DNA of 64,000 bases from Chloroflexota bacterium. GTDB taxonomy: Bacteria > Chloroflexota > UBA6077 > SHYK01. The notes under the pieces are model-generated. The model had not been told where the DNA came from. It did not search any database and saw nothing but the letters and a program-made list of their open reading frames with translations. Position 1 is the stretch's first letter. Every line of letters begins with the position of its first letter. Below, one piece after another: positions 42,523-60,373 of this stretch. The stretch covers positions 1 through 64,000 of the forward strand of contig DASRDP010000121.1 of the NCBI GenBank assembly GCA_035652535.1. The letters are read 5' to 3'. A program made the translations under genes and the position numbers.

Positions 42523-43512
42523 TTGCAGCGCAGCGACGAAGTCAACCGCGCCCGCCGTCGGCCACTCGCGCGCCTCGGCCCCTGGACCCTGGGATTCTTG
42601 CTCTTCGCCTGCGCCGCCGGCCTCGCTCGCCTGGCCACGCACGGCGCGGCCGCCCAGGAGCTGCCGGCGGCGCCTATCGACCCCATGAGGGCCGACTCGG
42701 CGGCGCAGGCTGGCGCCGATCAAACGGCAATCGATGTGGGCGGCACGTCAGCCGATCTGCAGGTGGAGGAGTTCGCGATCCACGTTCCGCCACTCCGTAG
42801 TCGGCCGTTGACGCCCCTCGTGGTCCTCCACGGGATGGGCGGCACGGGCAGCGACGAGGCGGACGCCCTGCGCCAGCAAGCCGACGAATTCGGGTGGGCC
42901 GTCCTAGCGCCGACCTTCGGGTACGGCGATTGGCGGGACCCGGCAGAGCTGCGGATCGAGGACCCGGCCAACGCGACGCGCATCGCGACCATGCTCGACC
43001 GGCTCCCGGACCTGATCGGCCACAACACTCGGCGACATGCCCTGGTCTACGGATTCTCTCGCGGAGCGCAGACCGCCCATCGGTTCGCGCTGGCCTTCCC
43101 TCGGCGGGTCGAGGCCGTGGCGATGATGTCGTCCGGCACCTACACGCTCCCAGTCTCGTCGACCGATGGGACGATGGCGCTGCCGTTCCCGTTCGGGGTG
43201 AGTGATTTTCCCGACCTCTTCGGGTGGTCGTTCGACGCGGATGACTTCTCTTCGATCCCCTTCTGGATTGGCGTCGGCTCGCAGGACGTCGATCCATCCG
43301 ACGTGCCGCACCAGTGGGACCCGTACCTGGGCGATGAGCGCGTCGAGCGGGCCCAGTCGTACGCGCGCTGGCTGCGCCGCGCGGGCGTCCAGGCCCAGGT
43401 TCAGGTGTTCCCCGGGACCGGGCACGGCGAGACCGCCGAGACCCGAAGCGCGGCCGTTCGCTTCCTCGCACGCGTCGACGAGGCGGACGGCACCGGCAAC
43501 CCGTCCTCCTGA
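42523..43512 (+). CDS. secreted alpha/beta hydrolase (esterase/depolymerase-like)
   Basis: 329-residue protein with an N-terminal signal (LGPWTLGFLLFACAAGLARL, then THGAAAQE). The catalytic serine is in LVYGFSRGAQTAH (about residue 178), the acid probably in GVGSQDVDPSD, and the histidine in FPGTGHGETAE. VVLHGMGGTGSDE supplies the oxyanion-hole region. The start is uncertain: an AGGAGG at 42503-42508 is 14 bases before the TTG at 42523 and eight before an in-frame CTG at 42517, and no in-frame ATG fits. Substrate unknown; an extracellular ester is likely. It lies 10 bases before the acetyltransferase gene. Confidence 0.82.
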   Translation: MQRSDEVNRARRRPLARLGPWTLGFLLFACAAGLARLATHGAAAQELPAAPIDPMRADSAAQAGADQTAIDVGGTSADLQVEEFAIHVPPLRSRPLTPLVVLHGMGGTGSDEADALRQQADEFGWAVLAPTFGYGDWRDPAELRIEDPANATRIATMLDRLPDLIGHNTRRHALVYGFSRGAQTAHRFALAFPRRVEAVAMMSSGTYTLPVSSTDGTMALPFPFGVSDFPDLFGWSFDADDFSSIPFWIGVGSQDVDPSDVPHQWDPYLGDERVERAQSYARWLRRAGVQAQVQVFPGTGHGETAETRSAAVRFLARVDEADGTGNPSS

Positions 43513-48686: not shown

Positions 48687-51332
48687 TTGTCGAGTCGAAT
48701 CCTCCATCTCCCTGAGCACACGCTTCTGGTCTCAGCCCTGCTGGCCTTGATCGGTATGGCGATCCCGTCCGTGGCATCTGCGGCGGGAACGTCAGGGTCC
48801 GGGACGGGAGGCGCCCTCAGCACCGCTACCCGCGCAGTAACCGGCGCCGCGAGCGGTGCAAGCCAGTCAGCAGGCGGTGTGACGAGCGCCACGAGCAGCG
48901 TCGCGAGCACCGCGAGCCACATCGCGAGTGGCGCATCGAACGGGGGCTCCCAGGCCGGGAGCGCAGCCAATGCAGCCAGCCACGCGGCAACGGGAGCAGG
49001 CCCGACCGGCGCGCCGCCGAAGGCCCCGCAACCCGGACCTCGCGGGGGCGCGGCGAACGCGACCGAGTTGCTCGCGAATAGCGCGGGCCGACTGGTGCAG
49101 AGCGCCACCGCTCGCGTGTCGAGCCCGTCGGTCGCGCCGGGGCCCGGCGCCGGCGCCACGACACCGCTCCACCAGTCGTCGTCGACGGGCGGCGAAAGGG
49201 CGGCCGGCTCATCCGGCCCATCCGCCGTTCCGGGACCCAGCGCGGGCGCGACAACCCCACTCCACGGGCAATCGGATCCGTCGGCCGGCGCAGCGACCAA
49301 TGTGGCAAGCGTGACCCGTCCGGTCTCGTCCGTGGTCAACACCGTAACCGGCGCCAGCCCAATCAGCGCGGCCTCCATGGGAGGCACCGCCCGCGACCTG
49401 ACGGCGCGGGGCGCATCCAGGCCGTCCAGCCCAGCGAGCGCCGCAATTGGATCGGCGACGAGCGCCGCGCCGCCCGTAGTCAACTCGGTCGTCCGATCCC
49501 CTCGCACCGGCACGGCCTCCGCCGGATCGTCCGAGCGAAGCTCCATTCCGACGACCGCGTTCGGGCGTGCGGGCGCATCCCTGGCGGCGCCGTCCACGAC
49601 GGCGGGCGCGATTCCGCAACGATTGCCGGCCGTTGGCTCGGCAACCCACGGCCTGGCGCCCGGGACAACCCGCGGTGCGCTGTCCGCTGCGGCGGGTGCC
49701 CTCGAATCGCCAGTCGTCGGGACGACGTCGGCGCTTCGGCAGCCGCTGGAGAGCGCGCCCGCTCTGATCCAGGCGCCATCACAGCGCACCACGAGGCTGG
49801 CTCGGCAAGGGACCGGGCTCGCGGCCATCACATCCGGACCAACTGGACCGACCCAGCCCGCCACCTCACCCCTCGCTCCGGCGGCCCTGACCCAGACGGG
49901 CAGCTCCCTGCTCCAGGCCACCATCCGCGGTGCTGCGGGGACCATCGACAGCCTCTCGGGACCCGTGGCCCACCCGCTTCCGACCATCCTTGCCCCAACG
50001 ACTTCGTTGACCGAGGAGCTGGCGCCGACCGTCACGCCGGTGGCGACCACCCTCCAGCCGACCGTGCGTCTCGCGGGAGGCGCCGTCGCGAACCTGGCGG
50101 CGCCCGTTACCCAGCCGCTGGCGGCGACGGTCGCGCCGGTGGCGACCACCCTCGAGCCGACCCTGAACATCATCGGCGGGAGCATCGAGTCCGCTATCGC
50201 GCCCACTGCGCAGCCCGTCGTGACAGCGGTCGCTCCCGTCATCGCGCTCGTCCAGCCAACCTCCAGCTTTGCTACCGGCACGCTTGAGCGCCTCGCGGCG
50301 CCGCTGACGGAGCCCTTCGCGGCCGCAACCGGCCCGATCGGTGCCGCGATCCAGCCCGCCAAATCGGGGCTCGCTCCGGTCTCGGACTTGACCGAGCCGC
50401 GTGCGACAGCCACCGGCCCGGTGAATTCCGTGGTAGGAACCGCATTGAGCCTCCTGGGCGACCGCGTCGGGGCGGTCACTGAGCCGATGAGGAAGCCCTT
50501 CACGTCAGCCCTTGCCCCCGTGGCCGAACTGGCCCAGCAGTCCGATGCGCTGGGCCAGCAAGGCATCACGGCCGTCGACGGCGTGGCCGGTGCAGTCCAG
50601 GACGTTCTCGTCGGGCTCGAGGGGGGAGTCGAAACCGAGAGCGTGTCGTTCGGTGGTCGACCTCGCGTCCGCCCGTCCGGCGTGTCACCGGACGCGCCAT
50701 CAGCACGGGTGGGAGGAGGAGCCTCAGCTCTGCCGCAGCCCTTCTCAGCGCAGGACGCGGTCATCGGCTCCTTCCCGGCGTCGTCAGTTCGCAACCCGGA
50801 CCAGTCGCATGACGGGACAGGCGACGAGGACGGGCCCGGCGCTGGCCCAGCCGCGCGAAATGGTGTCCTCGCGTCCGCGCCGGCGGCGAACCCCGCGACG
50901 ATCCTTCGGCTCCCAATGGGCGGCGGCGGATCCTCGCCCGAGCGCGGACCCGGCCAGGCTATTGGTGCGCCGCAATCGGCCCACGTCGCCGCCTTCGGCG
51001 CATCCACGCGCCGGTCAGAGGCCGACGCAAAGGCCAGGCCATCTTCCCTTTCCGCGCCGAAGATCGCGGCTCGCGCGGTCCGCGGCGCGGTCGTGGCGCC
51101 GCTCAGCCCCTTCTCCCCGCTCCGAAGTCCGGTTCCGCAGCCGCCCCTGGGATCAGTCACGCCTTTCGGCCTGCTCGCCAACGGCGACGCCAGCGGTGGC
51201 GCCAGCGCGGGGGGAGCGGTTGCCATCCTTCTCACTTCAATCCTGATCCTCCTCCGGCCGCTTGGCCGTGTTGCCGCCCGGACCGAGCGGCTCCCGAGCT
51301 GGGCGTTCGCCCCAGCTGCACCCCCAGGCTAG
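48687..51332 (+). CDS. large secreted Ala/Thr/Pro/Ser-rich repeat protein with C-terminal membrane anchor
   Basis: About 881 residues of no recognised family. The N terminus is a signal peptide (HTLLVSALLALIGMAIPSVA, then SAA). There is a long low-complexity body rich in Ala, Thr, Pro, Ser and Gly, with motifs such as GPGAGATTPLH and GPSAGATTPLH. Between about 50,030 and 50,330 it has at least three 33-residue units of the type TVTPVATTLQPTVRLAGGAV, TVAPVATTLEPTLNIIGGSI and AVAPVIALVQPTSSFATGTL. One hydrophobic helix (AVAILLTSILILLRPLG) followed by Arg residues near the C terminus should anchor it. The TTG at 48687 is the best start; an in-frame TTG at 48540 would place the leader hairpin inside the gene. 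Probable cell-surface stalk or adhesin-like protein; function unknown. Confidence 0.68.
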   Translation: MSSRILHLPEHTLLVSALLALIGMAIPSVASAAGTSGSGTGGALSTATRAVTGAASGASQSAGGVTSATSSVASTASHIASGASNGGSQAGSAANAASHAATGAGPTGAPPKAPQPGPRGGAANATELLANSAGRLVQSATARVSSPSVAPGPGAGATTPLHQSSSTGGERAAGSSGPSAVPGPSAGATTPLHGQSDPSAGAATNVASVTRPVSSVVNTVTGASPISAASMGGTARDLTARGASRPSSPASAAIGSATSAAPPVVNSVVRSPRTGTASAGSSERSSIPTTAFGRAGASLAAPSTTAGAIPQRLPAVGSATHGLAPGTTRGALSAAAGALESPVVGTTSALRQPLESAPALIQAPSQRTTRLARQGTGLAAITSGPTGPTQPATSPLAPAALTQTGSSLLQATIRGAAGTIDSLSGPVAHPLPTILAPTTSLTEELAPTVTPVATTLQPTVRLAGGAVANLAAPVTQPLAATVAPVATTLEPTLNIIGGSIESAIAPTAQPVVTAVAPVIALVQPTSSFATGTLERLAAPLTEPFAAATGPIGAAIQPAKSGLAPVSDLTEPRATATGPVNSVVGTALSLLGDRVGAVTEPMRKPFTSALAPVAELAQQSDALGQQGITAVDGVAGAVQDVLVGLEGGVETESVSFGGRPRVRPSGVSPDAPSARVGGGASALPQPFSAQDAVIGSFPASSVRNPDQSHDGTGDEDGPGAGPAARNGVLASAPAANPATILRLPMGGGGSSPERGPGQAIGAPQSAHVAAFGASTRRSEADAKARPSSLSAPKIAARAVRGAVVAPLSPFSPLRSPVPQPPLGSVTPFGLLANGDASGGASAGGAVAILLTSILILLRPLGRVAARTERLPSWAFAPAAPPG
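50027..50330 (+). repeat. 99-bp (33-residue) degenerate tandem repeats inside the first surface protein
   Basis: The segment GCCGGTGGCGACCACCCT recurs exactly 99 bases apart (near 50,036 and 50,135). The third unit is more diverged. Each unit encodes a proline-flanked, probably helical block with the pattern x-V-A-P-V-x-x-x-x-x-P-T. The spacing keeps the reading frame. Confidence 0.6.
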
Positions 51333-51615
51333 GCGCCCCACCCGCCCTCGCGCGACTCATCGTCGTTCGGGACGCGACCGGCGCCAAGCGCATCTGCTGC
51401 TGCCAGCGCAGGCGCCAGCCGTGGGCCCATTCAACGAGCCTGTCGTCGCGAGATCGAGGCGGGTGGCGGCGCCCACTTCGGGTCTCGACCCTGCCAGGTC
51501 GCCCGGTGCACGGCGCCCCACCCGTCCTCAACGGGACTCCGCCGGATCGCGTGTGCAGATGCGCGTCACCAGCGGAAAACGAAACGGAATCAGCAACAAC
51601 CAGGAGGTTGCATCA

Positions 51616-53841
51616 ATGCAACTCTGCAACCGAACCGGGGGCTTGCCCCTTCACCGCCTGGCCGGCCTCGCCGTGGGTCTCGCGCTAGCCAGCGCGTTCC
51701 TTCTCCTGACCGGGCCCGACGCGGCGTCGGCGCAAGTCCTCTCACCGGGCGGCGTGCTCGGCGGGTCCTCCGGAGGCGGGCAAGGCGCGGCGCCCGGCGG
51801 CATCGTACCCAGCGCGCCTCCGGCGGCTCCCCTCGCCAATGGCCCGAGCCTTCCGGGCGCAGGAGGGGCCACCTCCCCGGCTGTGGGTGGCTTGAGTCAG
51901 CCGGGCGGTGGCTCGCCCGCTGGCGGTGGACTGAGCCAGCCGGGCGGAGCAACGCTGCCGCTCAGCGGGCCGAGCACGCTCCATAACACCGGTTCCGGCT
52001 GCTGCCAGTCGCAGCCGTCGGGCGTGTCGAGTGACGGGCCATCGCACGGCTCGAACCCGTGCTGTCCGTCGCAGCCGTCGGGCGTGTCGAATGAGGGGCC
52101 ATCGCACGGCTCGAACCCGTGCTGCCAGGCATCCCATCCGTCTCAGCAGACGAGCGCGACGAATGTCGGCGCCAACGGTGGAAACGCGTCGAGCAAGTCG
52201 AGCAGCACCGGTGGCAACGGCGGCAATGCCAGCGCAGGGTCGAACTCCGCGAGTCATTCCCTCATCGCCATTCAGGGCGTGAACGTCGCGCCCCAAACGG
52301 CGATCCAGGGAACCGGACATGGAGACAACTCCAGCAGTAACTCCGTGACCAGCCAGTCGAACAACAGCGCCACCGGCGGCAACGGGGGCAAGAGCAGCAG
52401 CAGCGCCAGCAGCACCGGCGGGAACGGCGGAACCCAGACAGCCACTGCCAACGGCGGCGGCAATGGATGGATCAGCGGGTGCTGCGGTGGCTCGCACGGC
52501 GGAAGCAGCGTCAGCGCGGGCAACTTCGGCGCGAACGGCGGCAATGCGAAGAGCCACTCGGAGAGCACGGGCGGCAATGGTGGAAGCGCCAGCGCCGGCT
52601 CGAACTCGGCGAACGGTTCGCTGGTCGTCGTTCAGGGCGTGAACGTGGCGCCGCAGACGACCGTCCAGCTCACGGGCCACGGCGACAACACCAGCTCGAA
52701 CTCGGTCACGAGCCAGAGCGGCAACACGGCCGTCGGCGGCAGCGGCGGCAAGAGCACCAGCTCGGCGACGAGCTTCGGCGGCAATGGCGGCTCCCAGACG
52801 GCCACCGCGAGCGGCCAGGGATCGAGCGATTCCTCCAATTGCGGGTGTGATTCCCACCAGTCCTCGGGCCAGCGGGTATCCGCGAAGAACGCCGGCGCAA
52901 ACGGCGGGAACGCGCGCAGCTCGTCCGAAAGCTCCGGGGGCAACGGCGGCAACGCGAGCGCCGGATCCAACGGCGCCGGGCACTCGGCCGGCGTGATCCA
53001 GGGGATCAACGTGGCCCCGCAGTACACGCACCAGGGAGGTGGGCATTCCCACGGTTCCTGGATGAGCGGCGGAGACTCGTGCGGGTGCGACAGCACGAGC
53101 GGCGGCAACAGCAGCTCGAACTCGGTCACGAGCCAGAGCGGCAACACGGCCGCCGGCGGCAACGGCGGCAAGAGCACCAGCTCGGCGACGAGCTTCGGCG
53201 GCAACGGCGGCACCCAGACGGCCACTGCGAGCGGCCAGGGATCGAGCGATTGGTGCGGCTGCGACTCGGGCGATTCCGGCTCCTGGAACGGTGGCTGGTT
53301 TGGCCAGAGCGATTCACCGGGCTATGCCGGCGGGATCTGGTCGAACGCGTGTGGTTGCTACTCCAGCCATCCGCACGGAATGCCCTCGGTCGTCAGCGCG
53401 ACCAACAAGGGCGCCAATGGCGGGAACGCGAAGAGCCACTCCGAGAGCACGGGCGGCGACGGCGGCAACGCCAAGGCTGGCTCGAATGGCTCGAAGGGCT
53501 CCATCGGCGCGGCGCAGGGCGTGAACGTCACCCCTCAATGCGCCAATGGCGGCGGGATCCGTGACCCCTGGGGCTGCTCGTCTCCGAAGTCGAGCGGATC
53601 CGAGTGGTCGAACGGCGGCTCCTCCGGGGACTGTGGCTGCGACTCGTCCGGCGGGATGAACACCAGCGACAACTCGGTCGTGAGCCAGAGCGATAACAAC
53701 GCCACCGGTGGCAACGGCGGCAAGAGTCGCTCGCGGTCGCTGGCCGTGGGCGGCGAGGGCGGCACGCAGAGCGCGGCGGCCGGTGGAGACCAGGGGTCGG
53801 CCAACAGCTCGGCCGACCCGATGTCGCCGTCGGACCGCTAG
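51616..53841 (+). CDS. large secreted Gly/Ser/Asn-rich repeat protein with vicinal-cysteine repeats
   Basis: 741-residue secreted protein. The ATG at 51616 has AGGAGG eight bases upstream and is followed by a clear signal (LAGLAVGLALASAFLLLTG, then PDAASAQ). The N-terminal third is Gly/Pro/Ser-rich. At 52,000-52,128 a 20-residue unit (CCxSQPSGVSxxGPSHGSNP) repeats with paired cysteines. From about 52,170 to 53,790 two alternating blocks recur four times: GANGGNAxSxSESxGGNGG leading to VxQGVNVAPQ, and SNSVTSQSxNxAxGGNGGKS leading to GGNGGxQTATA. The pattern predicts a beta-rich solenoid or fibre. Asn/Gln spacing slightly recalls curli repeats, but the curli consensus is not met. No membrane anchor or sorting signal was seen. 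Family unknown; likely a matrix or sheath protein. Confidence 0.8.
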   Translation: MQLCNRTGGLPLHRLAGLAVGLALASAFLLLTGPDAASAQVLSPGGVLGGSSGGGQGAAPGGIVPSAPPAAPLANGPSLPGAGGATSPAVGGLSQPGGGSPAGGGLSQPGGATLPLSGPSTLHNTGSGCCQSQPSGVSSDGPSHGSNPCCPSQPSGVSNEGPSHGSNPCCQASHPSQQTSATNVGANGGNASSKSSSTGGNGGNASAGSNSASHSLIAIQGVNVAPQTAIQGTGHGDNSSSNSVTSQSNNSATGGNGGKSSSSASSTGGNGGTQTATANGGGNGWISGCCGGSHGGSSVSAGNFGANGGNAKSHSESTGGNGGSASAGSNSANGSLVVVQGVNVAPQTTVQLTGHGDNTSSNSVTSQSGNTAVGGSGGKSTSSATSFGGNGGSQTATASGQGSSDSSNCGCDSHQSSGQRVSAKNAGANGGNARSSSESSGGNGGNASAGSNGAGHSAGVIQGINVAPQYTHQGGGHSHGSWMSGGDSCGCDSTSGGNSSSNSVTSQSGNTAAGGNGGKSTSSATSFGGNGGTQTATASGQGSSDWCGCDSGDSGSWNGGWFGQSDSPGYAGGIWSNACGCYSSHPHGMPSVVSATNKGANGGNAKSHSESTGGDGGNAKAGSNGSKGSIGAAQGVNVTPQCANGGGIRDPWGCSSPKSSGSEWSNGGSSGDCGCDSSGGMNTSDNSVVSQSDNNATGGNGGKSRSRSLAVGGEGGTQSAAAGGDQGSANSSADPMSPSDR
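52000..52128 (+). repeat. 60-bp tandem repeat encoding a 20-residue double-cysteine unit
   Basis: Two full copies (52000-52059 and 52060-52119) and the start of a third. They differ at only a handful of positions. Each copy begins with a Cys-Cys pair, then the block SQPSGVS and GPSHGSNP. The near identity points to recent duplication or gene conversion. Confidence 0.85.
52691..53254 (+). repeat. two nearly identical 144-bp direct repeats 420 bp apart
   Basis: The stretches near 52691-52834 and 53111-53254 differ at only about ten positions and keep the reading frame (offset 420 bases, 140 residues). They encode the SNSVTSQSGNTA to ATASGQGSSD block. More diverged copies lie near 52,330 and 53,670. 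Such repeats could allow copy-number change by recombination. Confidence 0.8.
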
Positions 53842-53881: not shown

Positions 53882-54040
53882 CTCACCCCCGCCCTCTCCC
53901 GCTTCGGCGGGAGAGGGGGCATGCGAGGCCCTTCGCCCCGTTTCGGCGGGAGCGGGGGCATTCGAGGCCCTTCGCCCCGCTTCGGTGGGAGCGGGGGCAT
54001 TCGAGGCCCTTCGCCCCGCTTCGGCGGGAGCGGGGGGCCC
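53882..54040. repeat. 39-bp tandem repeat block, about four copies, each with an internal hairpin
   Basis: The unit starts ATTCGAGGCCCTTCGCCCC at 53999 and 53960, and as ATGCGAGG... at 53921, an exact 39-base period. A related partial unit precedes it at 53882. Each contains an inverted GC stem around CTTCGG or TTTCGG (CCCGCTTCGGCGGG type), a stable tetraloop hairpin. The block lies between two convergent genes and encodes nothing convincing. It resembles the dispersed palindromic repeats of high-GC genomes. Confidence 0.8.
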
Positions 54041-54091: not shown

Positions 54092-54127
54092 AACCGGTGT
54101 GGGGGGAGCGCTCCCCCCACACCGGTT
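54092..54127. repeat. perfect 36-bp palindrome between convergent genes
   Basis: AACCGGTGTGGGGGGAGC (54092-54109) is followed directly by its exact reverse complement (54110-54127). Transcribed in either direction it would form a very stable hairpin with almost no loop. There is no T run. It lies in the 354-base region between the Gly/Ser-rich protein and the carboxypeptidase gene, and may act as a two-way transcription barrier or a protein-binding site. Outside this palindrome and the 39-bp repeats, the region shows nothing. Confidence 0.85.
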
Positions 54128-58901: not shown

Positions 58902-59558
58902 TCAATCGATGCGGAGCCGGTCCATGAGAAGCCGGCGATTCTCTTCCAGCGTCCGCTGGAAAGCCGGCGAGTCCAGCAGCTCCGTCGTCATGATCAGCGC
59001 GTCCTCGCCGTCGTCGCTATAGTATCGCCTGCGAATGCCCGCGTCGTGGAACCGGTACTTGCGGTACAGCGCCTGAGCCACGGTGTTCGAAACGCGGCAC
59101 TCCAGGGTGACCGTCTCCGCGCTCAGCTCGCACGCATGATCGATGAGGGATACGAGCAGCAGGTCCCCGATCCCCTCTCCGCGGAAGGGAGGATCGACGG
59201 CGATGGTGGTGATGTGCGCCTCGTCGACCATCATCCACATGCCGGTGTAGCCCACGATCGTCTCCAGCTCGAAAGCCTCTTCAGCGCTGTAGAGCCGCCC
59301 GGCGCGCACGAGGCCTTTCAGCTTGCCCAGCAGCCCGTCGGCACCGTCGTGGCTGTTGGCCTCAACGGGAAATCGCGGATCACGGCGCGGCGCGACGATC
59401 TCCGGCACGCGCTTGGCGACCACGTAGTACGCCATCTTATTGCGCTCGATCTCTCGGCGATATGCCGAAGGCGGCCACGCGGTGGGAAACGATTCGTTCT
59501 CGATGGCCGAAACCGCCGGAATGTGGCGGATCTCCATCGACTCGATCACGTATTTCAA
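58902..59558 (-). CDS. rimI: ribosomal-protein-alanine N-acetyltransferase-like GNAT enzyme
   Basis: 218-residue GNAT protein of the RimI group, which acetylates the N terminus of ribosomal protein S18 and related targets. Core motifs are DEAHITTIAVDPPFRGEGIG (acetyl-CoA loop), VTLECRVSNTVAQALYRKYR and RYYSDDGEDALIM. About 60 residues between the first and second strand (PRRDPRFPVEANSHDGADGL) are an insertion relative to compact RimI. The start is unclear: TTG at 59558, GTG at 59549 and ATG at 59537 are all in frame, and the first keeps the full beta strand. Placement directly after tsaB is the usual bacterial arrangement and supports the name. Confidence 0.88.
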   Translation of the reverse strand: MKYVIESMEIRHIPAVSAIENESFPTAWPPSAYRREIERNKMAYYVVAKRVPEIVAPRRDPRFPVEANSHDGADGLLGKLKGLVRAGRLYSAEEAFELETIVGYTGMWMMVDEAHITTIAVDPPFRGEGIGDLLLVSLIDHACELSAETVTLECRVSNTVAQALYRKYRFHDAGIRRRYYSDDGEDALIMTTELLDSPAFQRTLEENRRLLMDRLRID

Positions 59559-59643: not shown

Positions 59644-59694
59644 GCCCGTCCTCGCTCAGTGCCCGTCCTCGCTCAGTGCCCGTCCTCGCTCAGT
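59644..59694. repeat. three tandem 17-bp copies spanning the tsaB stop codon
   Basis: GCCCGTCCTCGCTCAGT occurs three times in a row (59644-59660, 59661-59677, 59678-59694). The tsaB stop (TCA on the plus strand, 59690-59692) lies in the third copy. The copies look identical, so the array arose recently, probably by slippage or unequal exchange. Confidence 0.85.
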
Positions 59695-60373
59695 GAAGGT
59701 AGATCGGCTCGACGGCGCCCGTCACCGCGTCCCCCCGCCGGATGCGAAGGGCCGCCAGCTCAGCGAGGTGCCCGGCGCGCCGGGCGCTGGCGGCGGGCGA
59801 CGATAGCTCCAGCCGCTCCCCGTGACTCCGCTCCACGCGTTCTCGGGCTGCCGCGTCGAGATCGACGGCGAGGAGCGCTCGCTCCGCGATGGCCAGAGCG
59901 AGAAGATCCCCGAGCCCCGCGCCCTCGATCCCGGATTCCGCTTCCACGTGCCGGACCGCGCGCCGGTAGCGCGCAGTAGCGTAGCGACCCCGGCCGACCT
60001 CGATGGCGGCGCGGACAGAGCGAGGAGCCTTACTCTCGGCCGCGCCCGGAGGACAGGATCCCCAGACGATGACCTCGAGGGTTGGAACCTGGACCAGATC
60101 GAGGCCCAACGCTTCCGAGAGCCCGAGCGCCGTCGAGATCCCGACCCGGAGACCGGAATACGAGCCCGGCCCCACGGCGACCGCGATGGCGGTGAGCATT
60201 CCGCGATCGAGGCTTCCCAAGCGCAGCATCGCATCGATGGTGGGGAGGAGCTGGCTCGAGTGGCGCCGACCGCTGTGCCACACGCACTCCGCGATCACCT
60301 GCTCCCGGTATACCGCGACACTGGCCGTCGCGCCGGAGGAATCAATGGCGAGGATGGTTTCGATGTCCAGCAC
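59690..60373 (-). CDS. tsaB: tRNA threonylcarbamoyladenosine biosynthesis protein TsaB
   Basis: 227-residue ASKHA-fold protein that works with TsaD and TsaE to make the t6A modification at tRNA position 37. Characteristic sequence: ILAIDSSGATASVAVYREQV, GRRHSSQLLPTIDAML and AVAVGPGSYSGLRVGISTAL, the last being the TsaB hallmark. The GTG at 60373 gives the usual N terminus and overlaps the tsaE 3' end by 32 bases. The C-terminal residues (AVEPIYLH) match the family end. The stop lies in a triplicated 17-bp repeat. Confidence 0.95.
   Translation of the reverse strand: MLDIETILAIDSSGATASVAVYREQVIAECVWHSGRRHSSQLLPTIDAMLRLGSLDRGMLTAIAVAVGPGSYSGLRVGISTALGLSEALGLDLVQVPTLEVIVWGSCPPGAAESKAPRSVRAAIEVGRGRYATARYRRAVRHVEAESGIEGAGLGDLLALAIAERALLAVDLDAAARERVERSHGERLELSSPAASARRAGHLAELAALRIRRGDAVTGAVEPIYLH

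Follow-up and report, generated by a model that had tools for sequence, protein, structure and literature searches.

Silk-like and chorion structural proteins, which are eukaryotic, carry alternating small residues on one face of a strand, Gly-rich turns and Cys outside the core. The RTX beta-roll consists of consecutive GGxGxDxUx nonapeptides, and sortase-anchored surface proteins combine LPXTG with a C-terminal transmembrane segment. Judged by features and not by sequence alignment, the nearest functional likeness of the protein described here would be MspA, the sheath protein of methanogenic archaea. In the MspA sheath, amyloid structure and disulfides between chains are together believed to give stiffness (PMC6242892), and the cysteines sit in non-core regions, outside the fibril core (PMC5618241).

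Here we analyse a window of 64,000 nucleotides from a Chloroflexota bacterium, which contains a gene for a Gly/Ser-rich protein built from four repeat units. We favour, tentatively and with a probability of about 0.45, the reading that its product is a lineage-specific secreted structural matrix protein of no known family, in which Cys-bearing loops would be cross-linked or metal-bound.

The gene, its surroundings and the search for relatives

The open frame spans 51262–53841, and we placed the gene start at ATG 51616, 8 nt past an AGGAGG. The features at the level of the locus are as follows.

48687–51332, plus strand: upstream neighbour and possible partner, rich in Ala, Gly, Ser, Pro and Thr, with ~33-residue repeats; start codon uncertain, a frame from TTG 48540 being also open
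51602–51607, plus strand: Shine-Dalgarno sequence AGGAGG, 8 nt ahead of ATG 51616 (read directly)
51616–53841, plus strand: orphan gene for a probably secreted repeat protein, 741 aa (dN/dS among units; GC3 near that of polA)
51616–51732, plus strand: signal peptide, aa 1–39, with Arg, a hydrophobic core and ASA before Q (sequence and hydropathy; cleavage site placed by rule)
54092–54127, no strand: loop-free perfect palindrome, its arms 18 bp each, where two genes converge; possibly a terminator

The reading frame, coordinates and motifs given for this gene in an earlier note all hold. The product consists of 23% Gly, 20% Ser, 10% Ala and 8% Asn, such that Gly and Ser together make up 43%, and hydropathy detects no membrane segment beyond the signal peptide. 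The host genome (4.45 Mb in 168 contigs, 98% complete) contains no Omp85, for which 7 of 14 control genomes were positive; a single membrane is therefore likely, and Sec export would free the protein outside. The earlier claim of secretion is thus borne out by a signal peptide assigned by rule and by the lack of Omp85, and the product is probably exported by Sec to the cell exterior. The polA gene of the window is 61–68% identical to polA from the family's other genera, showing that the contig belongs to this lineage. Since the GC3 of the repeat gene (0.856) is close to that of the adjacent polA (0.871), the gene looks resident and not freshly imported.

The upstream neighbour adjoins the repeat gene in the same direction, and its protein has an N-terminal hydrophobic stretch and a C-terminal transmembrane segment followed by Arg. 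Going by this adjacency alone, the two proteins may be partners; that they jointly build a sheath, as the earlier note had suggested, would be a guess from the same arrangement. No homologue of the neighbour was found among 29 class genomes, and co-occurrence of the two genes was not seen, neither having a homologue in the searched class genomes. In the stretch past polA of class genomes, the ORF at 42674 gave many matches of low identity and the neighbour gave a few; these were obtained with low-complexity masking off and were rejected as composition artefacts. We recognised no partner, chaperone or cross-linking enzyme near the repeat gene, the remaining neighbours being metabolic or housekeeping. 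In eight class genomes (two with only 3–5 kb of sequence there), the flanking genes were missing from the stretch past polA, as was any ORF rich in Gly, Ser and Asn; gene order past polA is thus not conserved in relatives, placing the repeat gene and its neighbour in a variable region.

Two further repeats lie downstream. At 53898–54036 there are four copies of a GC-rich, hairpin-like 39-bp tandem repeat (CGCTTCGGCGGGAGNGGGGG), found nowhere else in the window, which resembles REP-type elements. At 59644–59695, a 17-bp direct repeat (GCCCGTCCTCGCTCAGT) occurs in 3.1 exact copies shortly upstream of the GNAT acetyltransferase gene at 58902–59558.

The homologue search that the earlier note had called for was run and detected no relative. 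In line with its description of a protein unlike any family, we found no match in Pfam (at E up to 1), NCBIfam, PHROGs, PADLOC or PDB sequences, no paralogue in the host genome, no credible homologue among 29 class and 400 phylum genomes, and no relatives in plasmids, phages, viral contigs or, across two scans, a collection of genome contigs. These results are to be read with the caveats that low-complexity filters can mask proteins of such composition, that the four other family genomes searched were 76–88% complete and that the searched set was without a same-genus genome. The weak profile matches G027 and G009 (E 0.04–0.08) fall on EF-P and histidine-kinase genes read in a different frame, and G053 (E 0.005) has no repeat of this kind; we took all three as chance. 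We inspected 23 matches to QG[VI]NV[AT]PQ in the genome contig collection, none of which has the surrounding repeat, and a nucleotide-pattern scan of the class returned the repeat gene alone, plus unrelated glycine-coding stretches.

Repeat architecture and constraint

Downstream of the signal peptide, the protein is organised as follows.

51733–51999, plus strand: Gly/Pro/Ser-rich linker, aa 40–128 (from the translation)
52000–52128, plus strand: CC-bearing 20-residue repeats, CC at aa 129, 149 and 169 (60-bp tandem repeat with 91% matches; Cys positions)
52153–52512, plus strand: unit 1, aa 180–299, CC linker
52168–52251, plus strand: example of cassette A, two 14-mers, GANGGNASSKSSST and GGNGGNASAGSNSA; counterparts in units 2–4 at aa 305, 427 and 599
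52273–52296, plus strand: QGVNVAPQ core of unit 1; starts in the other units at 52633, 52999 and 53515
52336–52359, plus strand: SNSVTSQS core of unit 1; starts in the other units at 52696, 53116 and 53668
52375–52458, plus strand: example of cassette B, two 14-mers, GGNGGKSSSSASST and GGNGGTQTATANGG; counterparts in units 2–4 at aa 374, 514 and 698
52513–52878, plus strand: unit 2, aa 300–421, CGC linker
52879–53394, plus strand: unit 3, aa 422–593, CGC in both the mid-loop and the linker, with an insertion rich in Trp
53395–53838, plus strand: unit 4, aa 594–741, mid-loop with two single Cys and a CGC, Cys-free C-terminal tail

Each of the four units, 120–172 aa in size, runs from cassette A through QGVNVAPQ, a loop, SNSVTSQS and cassette B to a linker or tail, the linker usually bearing Cys. 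The four alternating copies of two blocks described previously are present, with QG[VI]NV[AT]PQ at aa 220, 340, 462 and 634 and SNSVTSQS or DNSVVSQS at aa 241, 361, 501 and 685. The tandem CC-containing 20-mers described with them are also real, with CC exactly 20 residues apart, but form a separate N-terminal block outside the four-fold repeat. In each unit, insertions are seen at two sites, in the mid-loop and in the linker between units.

The finest level of the architecture, absent from the earlier description, is a set of sixteen 14-residue repeats arranged in eight pairs, with a spacing of exactly 14 residues within every pair. Their consensus is G-[GA]-N-G-G-x-[ASQ]-x-[SA]-x-[SA]-x-[SGA]-x, in which G1, G4 and G5 are invariant, positions 9 and 11 are Ser or Ala in every copy, and N differs in 3 of 16. 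Compared with 200 shuffles scanned over offsets 1–139, the identity at offset 120 (0.276) exceeded the maximum (0.195), and the identity at offset 14 (0.193) fell in the top tail of the same null.

Within each 14-mer type, invariant columns account for 13 of 16 at positions 7, 9, 11 and 13 versus 4 of 20 elsewhere (p = 6e-4, which is descriptive since core boundaries were set by eye on the alignment and the compared positions were picked post hoc). These alternate invariant positions hold small residues, and the pattern GG-x-[AS]-x-[SA]-x-[SA] has 13 matches versus 1.0 in shuffles. Such alternating invariance is what strands should give when small residues are packed along one face and the other face is free, and we read it as the signature of a two-faced beta-strand, from which a beta-sheet would be a further step.

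Between units, dS is 0.55–1.02 and dN/dS is 0.24–0.53, as measured among copies within one gene, there being no orthologue. Silent-site divergence of this size together with dN/dS well below 1 indicates that the protein pattern is under selection and kept in this frame, and that the similarity of the units is not merely due to recent duplication or conversion. Both this constraint and the exact 14-residue pairing with alternating invariance are hard to explain if the product is instead a secreted, intrinsically disordered Gly/Ser/Asn polymer, such as a slime or hydration layer, whose repeats grew by duplication and whose cross-links form via Cys alone. We consider this alternative unlikely, albeit the best placed of the competing explanations: the Gly and Ser content and the freely varying loop lengths speak for it, as does the absence of predicted structure. 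AlphaFold2 models of one unit and of two units had a pLDDT of ~32, nowhere reaching 50, and lacked secondary structure, but since the alignment held only 3–4 repeat rows, these models are weak evidence, neither for nor against a fold, the beta-solenoid proposed in the earlier note included.

Cysteine placement and the proposed assembly

All 14 Cys of the repeat region fall within its 222 loop residues, with 0 in 340 core residues (p = 2e-6, descriptive for the same reasons), and the Trp and Tyr of this region are mostly in loops as well. Nearly all Cys of the protein lie in paired motifs, comprising four CC pairs and five CGC. The Cys are therefore placed where the cross-linking envisaged by the earlier note is possible, namely in loops only, and the pairs may form disulfide cross-links.

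The same confinement of Cys to CC and CGC pairs could point to an extracellular metal binder, in which CC, CGC and His loops would hold soft metals such as Cu or Zn, with the Gly modules as spacers. The 18 His of the 741-aa protein, 13 of them in the repeat region and 9 of those 13 in loops, fit this explanation. We nevertheless regard it as improbable, as the scanned neighbours include no metal-handling gene, no metal-binding family is matched, and the conserved portion is the Cys-free core.

A functional amyloid resembling curli or chaplins is the least probable explanation, since, despite the Asn/Gln/Gly content, the fit of SNSVTSQSG in units 2 and 3 to a degenerate curlin pattern and the Val/Ile-rich Aggrescan hot spots that run into QGVNVAPQ in units 1–3 (not unit 4), Pfam is empty and both measures stay at shuffle level (degenerate pattern, 2 versus 1.1 in shuffles; hot spots, 6 versus 5.6). 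The protein also gave 0 matches to the NX5QXG and N-x-psi-x-psi-x-Q kernels, and the amyloid-like character proposed for it earlier gains no support.

In the structural matrix reading that we favour, the signal peptide would direct the repeat protein to Sec and, the cell probably being without an outer membrane, the protein would be free outside. Each unit would give four short strand-like segments from its 14-mers, each a GGNGG turn followed by nine residues with small Ser/Ala along one face, and further strands would form around QGVNVAPQ and SNSVTSQS. These strands could pack via the small-residue face into beta-rich, silk-like modules, leaving variable loops at two fixed points per unit to carry CC/CGC, Trp/Tyr and His. 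The loops would then form disulfides between adjacent chains, or would bind metal, giving an insoluble matrix or sheath. We infer beta structure, assembly, cross-linking and a sheath or matrix role from the sequence. A bolder version, a new class of bacterial fibre in which a silk-like beta stack with GGNGG turns is locked by CC/CGC and held to a monoderm cell by the anchored neighbour, seems to us a long shot.

Comparison with known systems

Like MspA of Methanosaeta and Methanospirillum (PMC6242892, PMC5618241), the repeat protein has a signal peptide, long imperfect repeats, conserved Gly/Asn/Gln and Cys outside the core, and no curli-like operon surrounds its gene. In contrast, MspA is archaeal, with ~80-aa repeats and amyloid properties that have been shown. 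The regularly spaced amyloidogenic segments of MspA were not clearly recovered here, the Aggrescan hot spots running into QGVNVAPQ in units 1–3 but not in unit 4. Extracellular repeats rich in Ser/Gln/Asn/Gly are shared with CsgA (PF07012; PMC10192328), but curlin repeats measure 23 ± 5 aa and carry N/S-x-psi-x-psi-x-Q kernels (PMC10192328), whereas the repeat protein has 120–172-aa units, a 14-aa sub-repeat and no kernel. Membership with CsgA/CsgB is rejected on the lack of a Pfam curlin repeat match and of kernels; moreover, since the host is without Omp85, no outer membrane is expected for a CsgG-type route.

Chaplins (PF03777; PMC5618241) are likewise secreted surface proteins of monoderms in which Cys are important and which have anchored and free members. 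Their domains are short and hydrophobic, whereas the repeat protein is strongly hydrophilic, and Pfam finds no PF03777 domain in it. The polyglycine II sandwiches of PE_PGRS proteins (PMC10216338) also place GGN triplets in a surface protein, but PGRS triplets are tandem GGX, whereas here the GGNGG motifs are set apart by nine other residues; GGxGGxGGx occurs 0 times in the repeat region, and there is no PE domain match. GGNGGN recalls the opening of the RTX nonapeptide, but the period is 14 and not 9, there is neither Asp6 nor a hydrophobic residue at position 8, and even a loose consecutive form of the RTX repeat gave 0 matches. Sortase anchoring was discarded, there being no LPXTG from the repeat region to the C-terminus and no transmembrane segment past the signal peptide.

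Alternation, turns and Cys placement are alike in silk or chorion proteins and in the repeat protein, but there is no homology, and neither GAGAGS silk nor collagen patterns occur in it. For now, the gene is an orphan; its regularity is real, and its role is inferred. If assembly proceeds as proposed, it would represent a repeat family new to extracellular materials, belonging to a lineage of uncultured bacteria and following a simple rule in which a turn is joined to an alternating small face and Cys are confined to loops. It would then be a disulfide-locked analogue of silk, or of an archaeal sheath, from a bacterium without an outer membrane.
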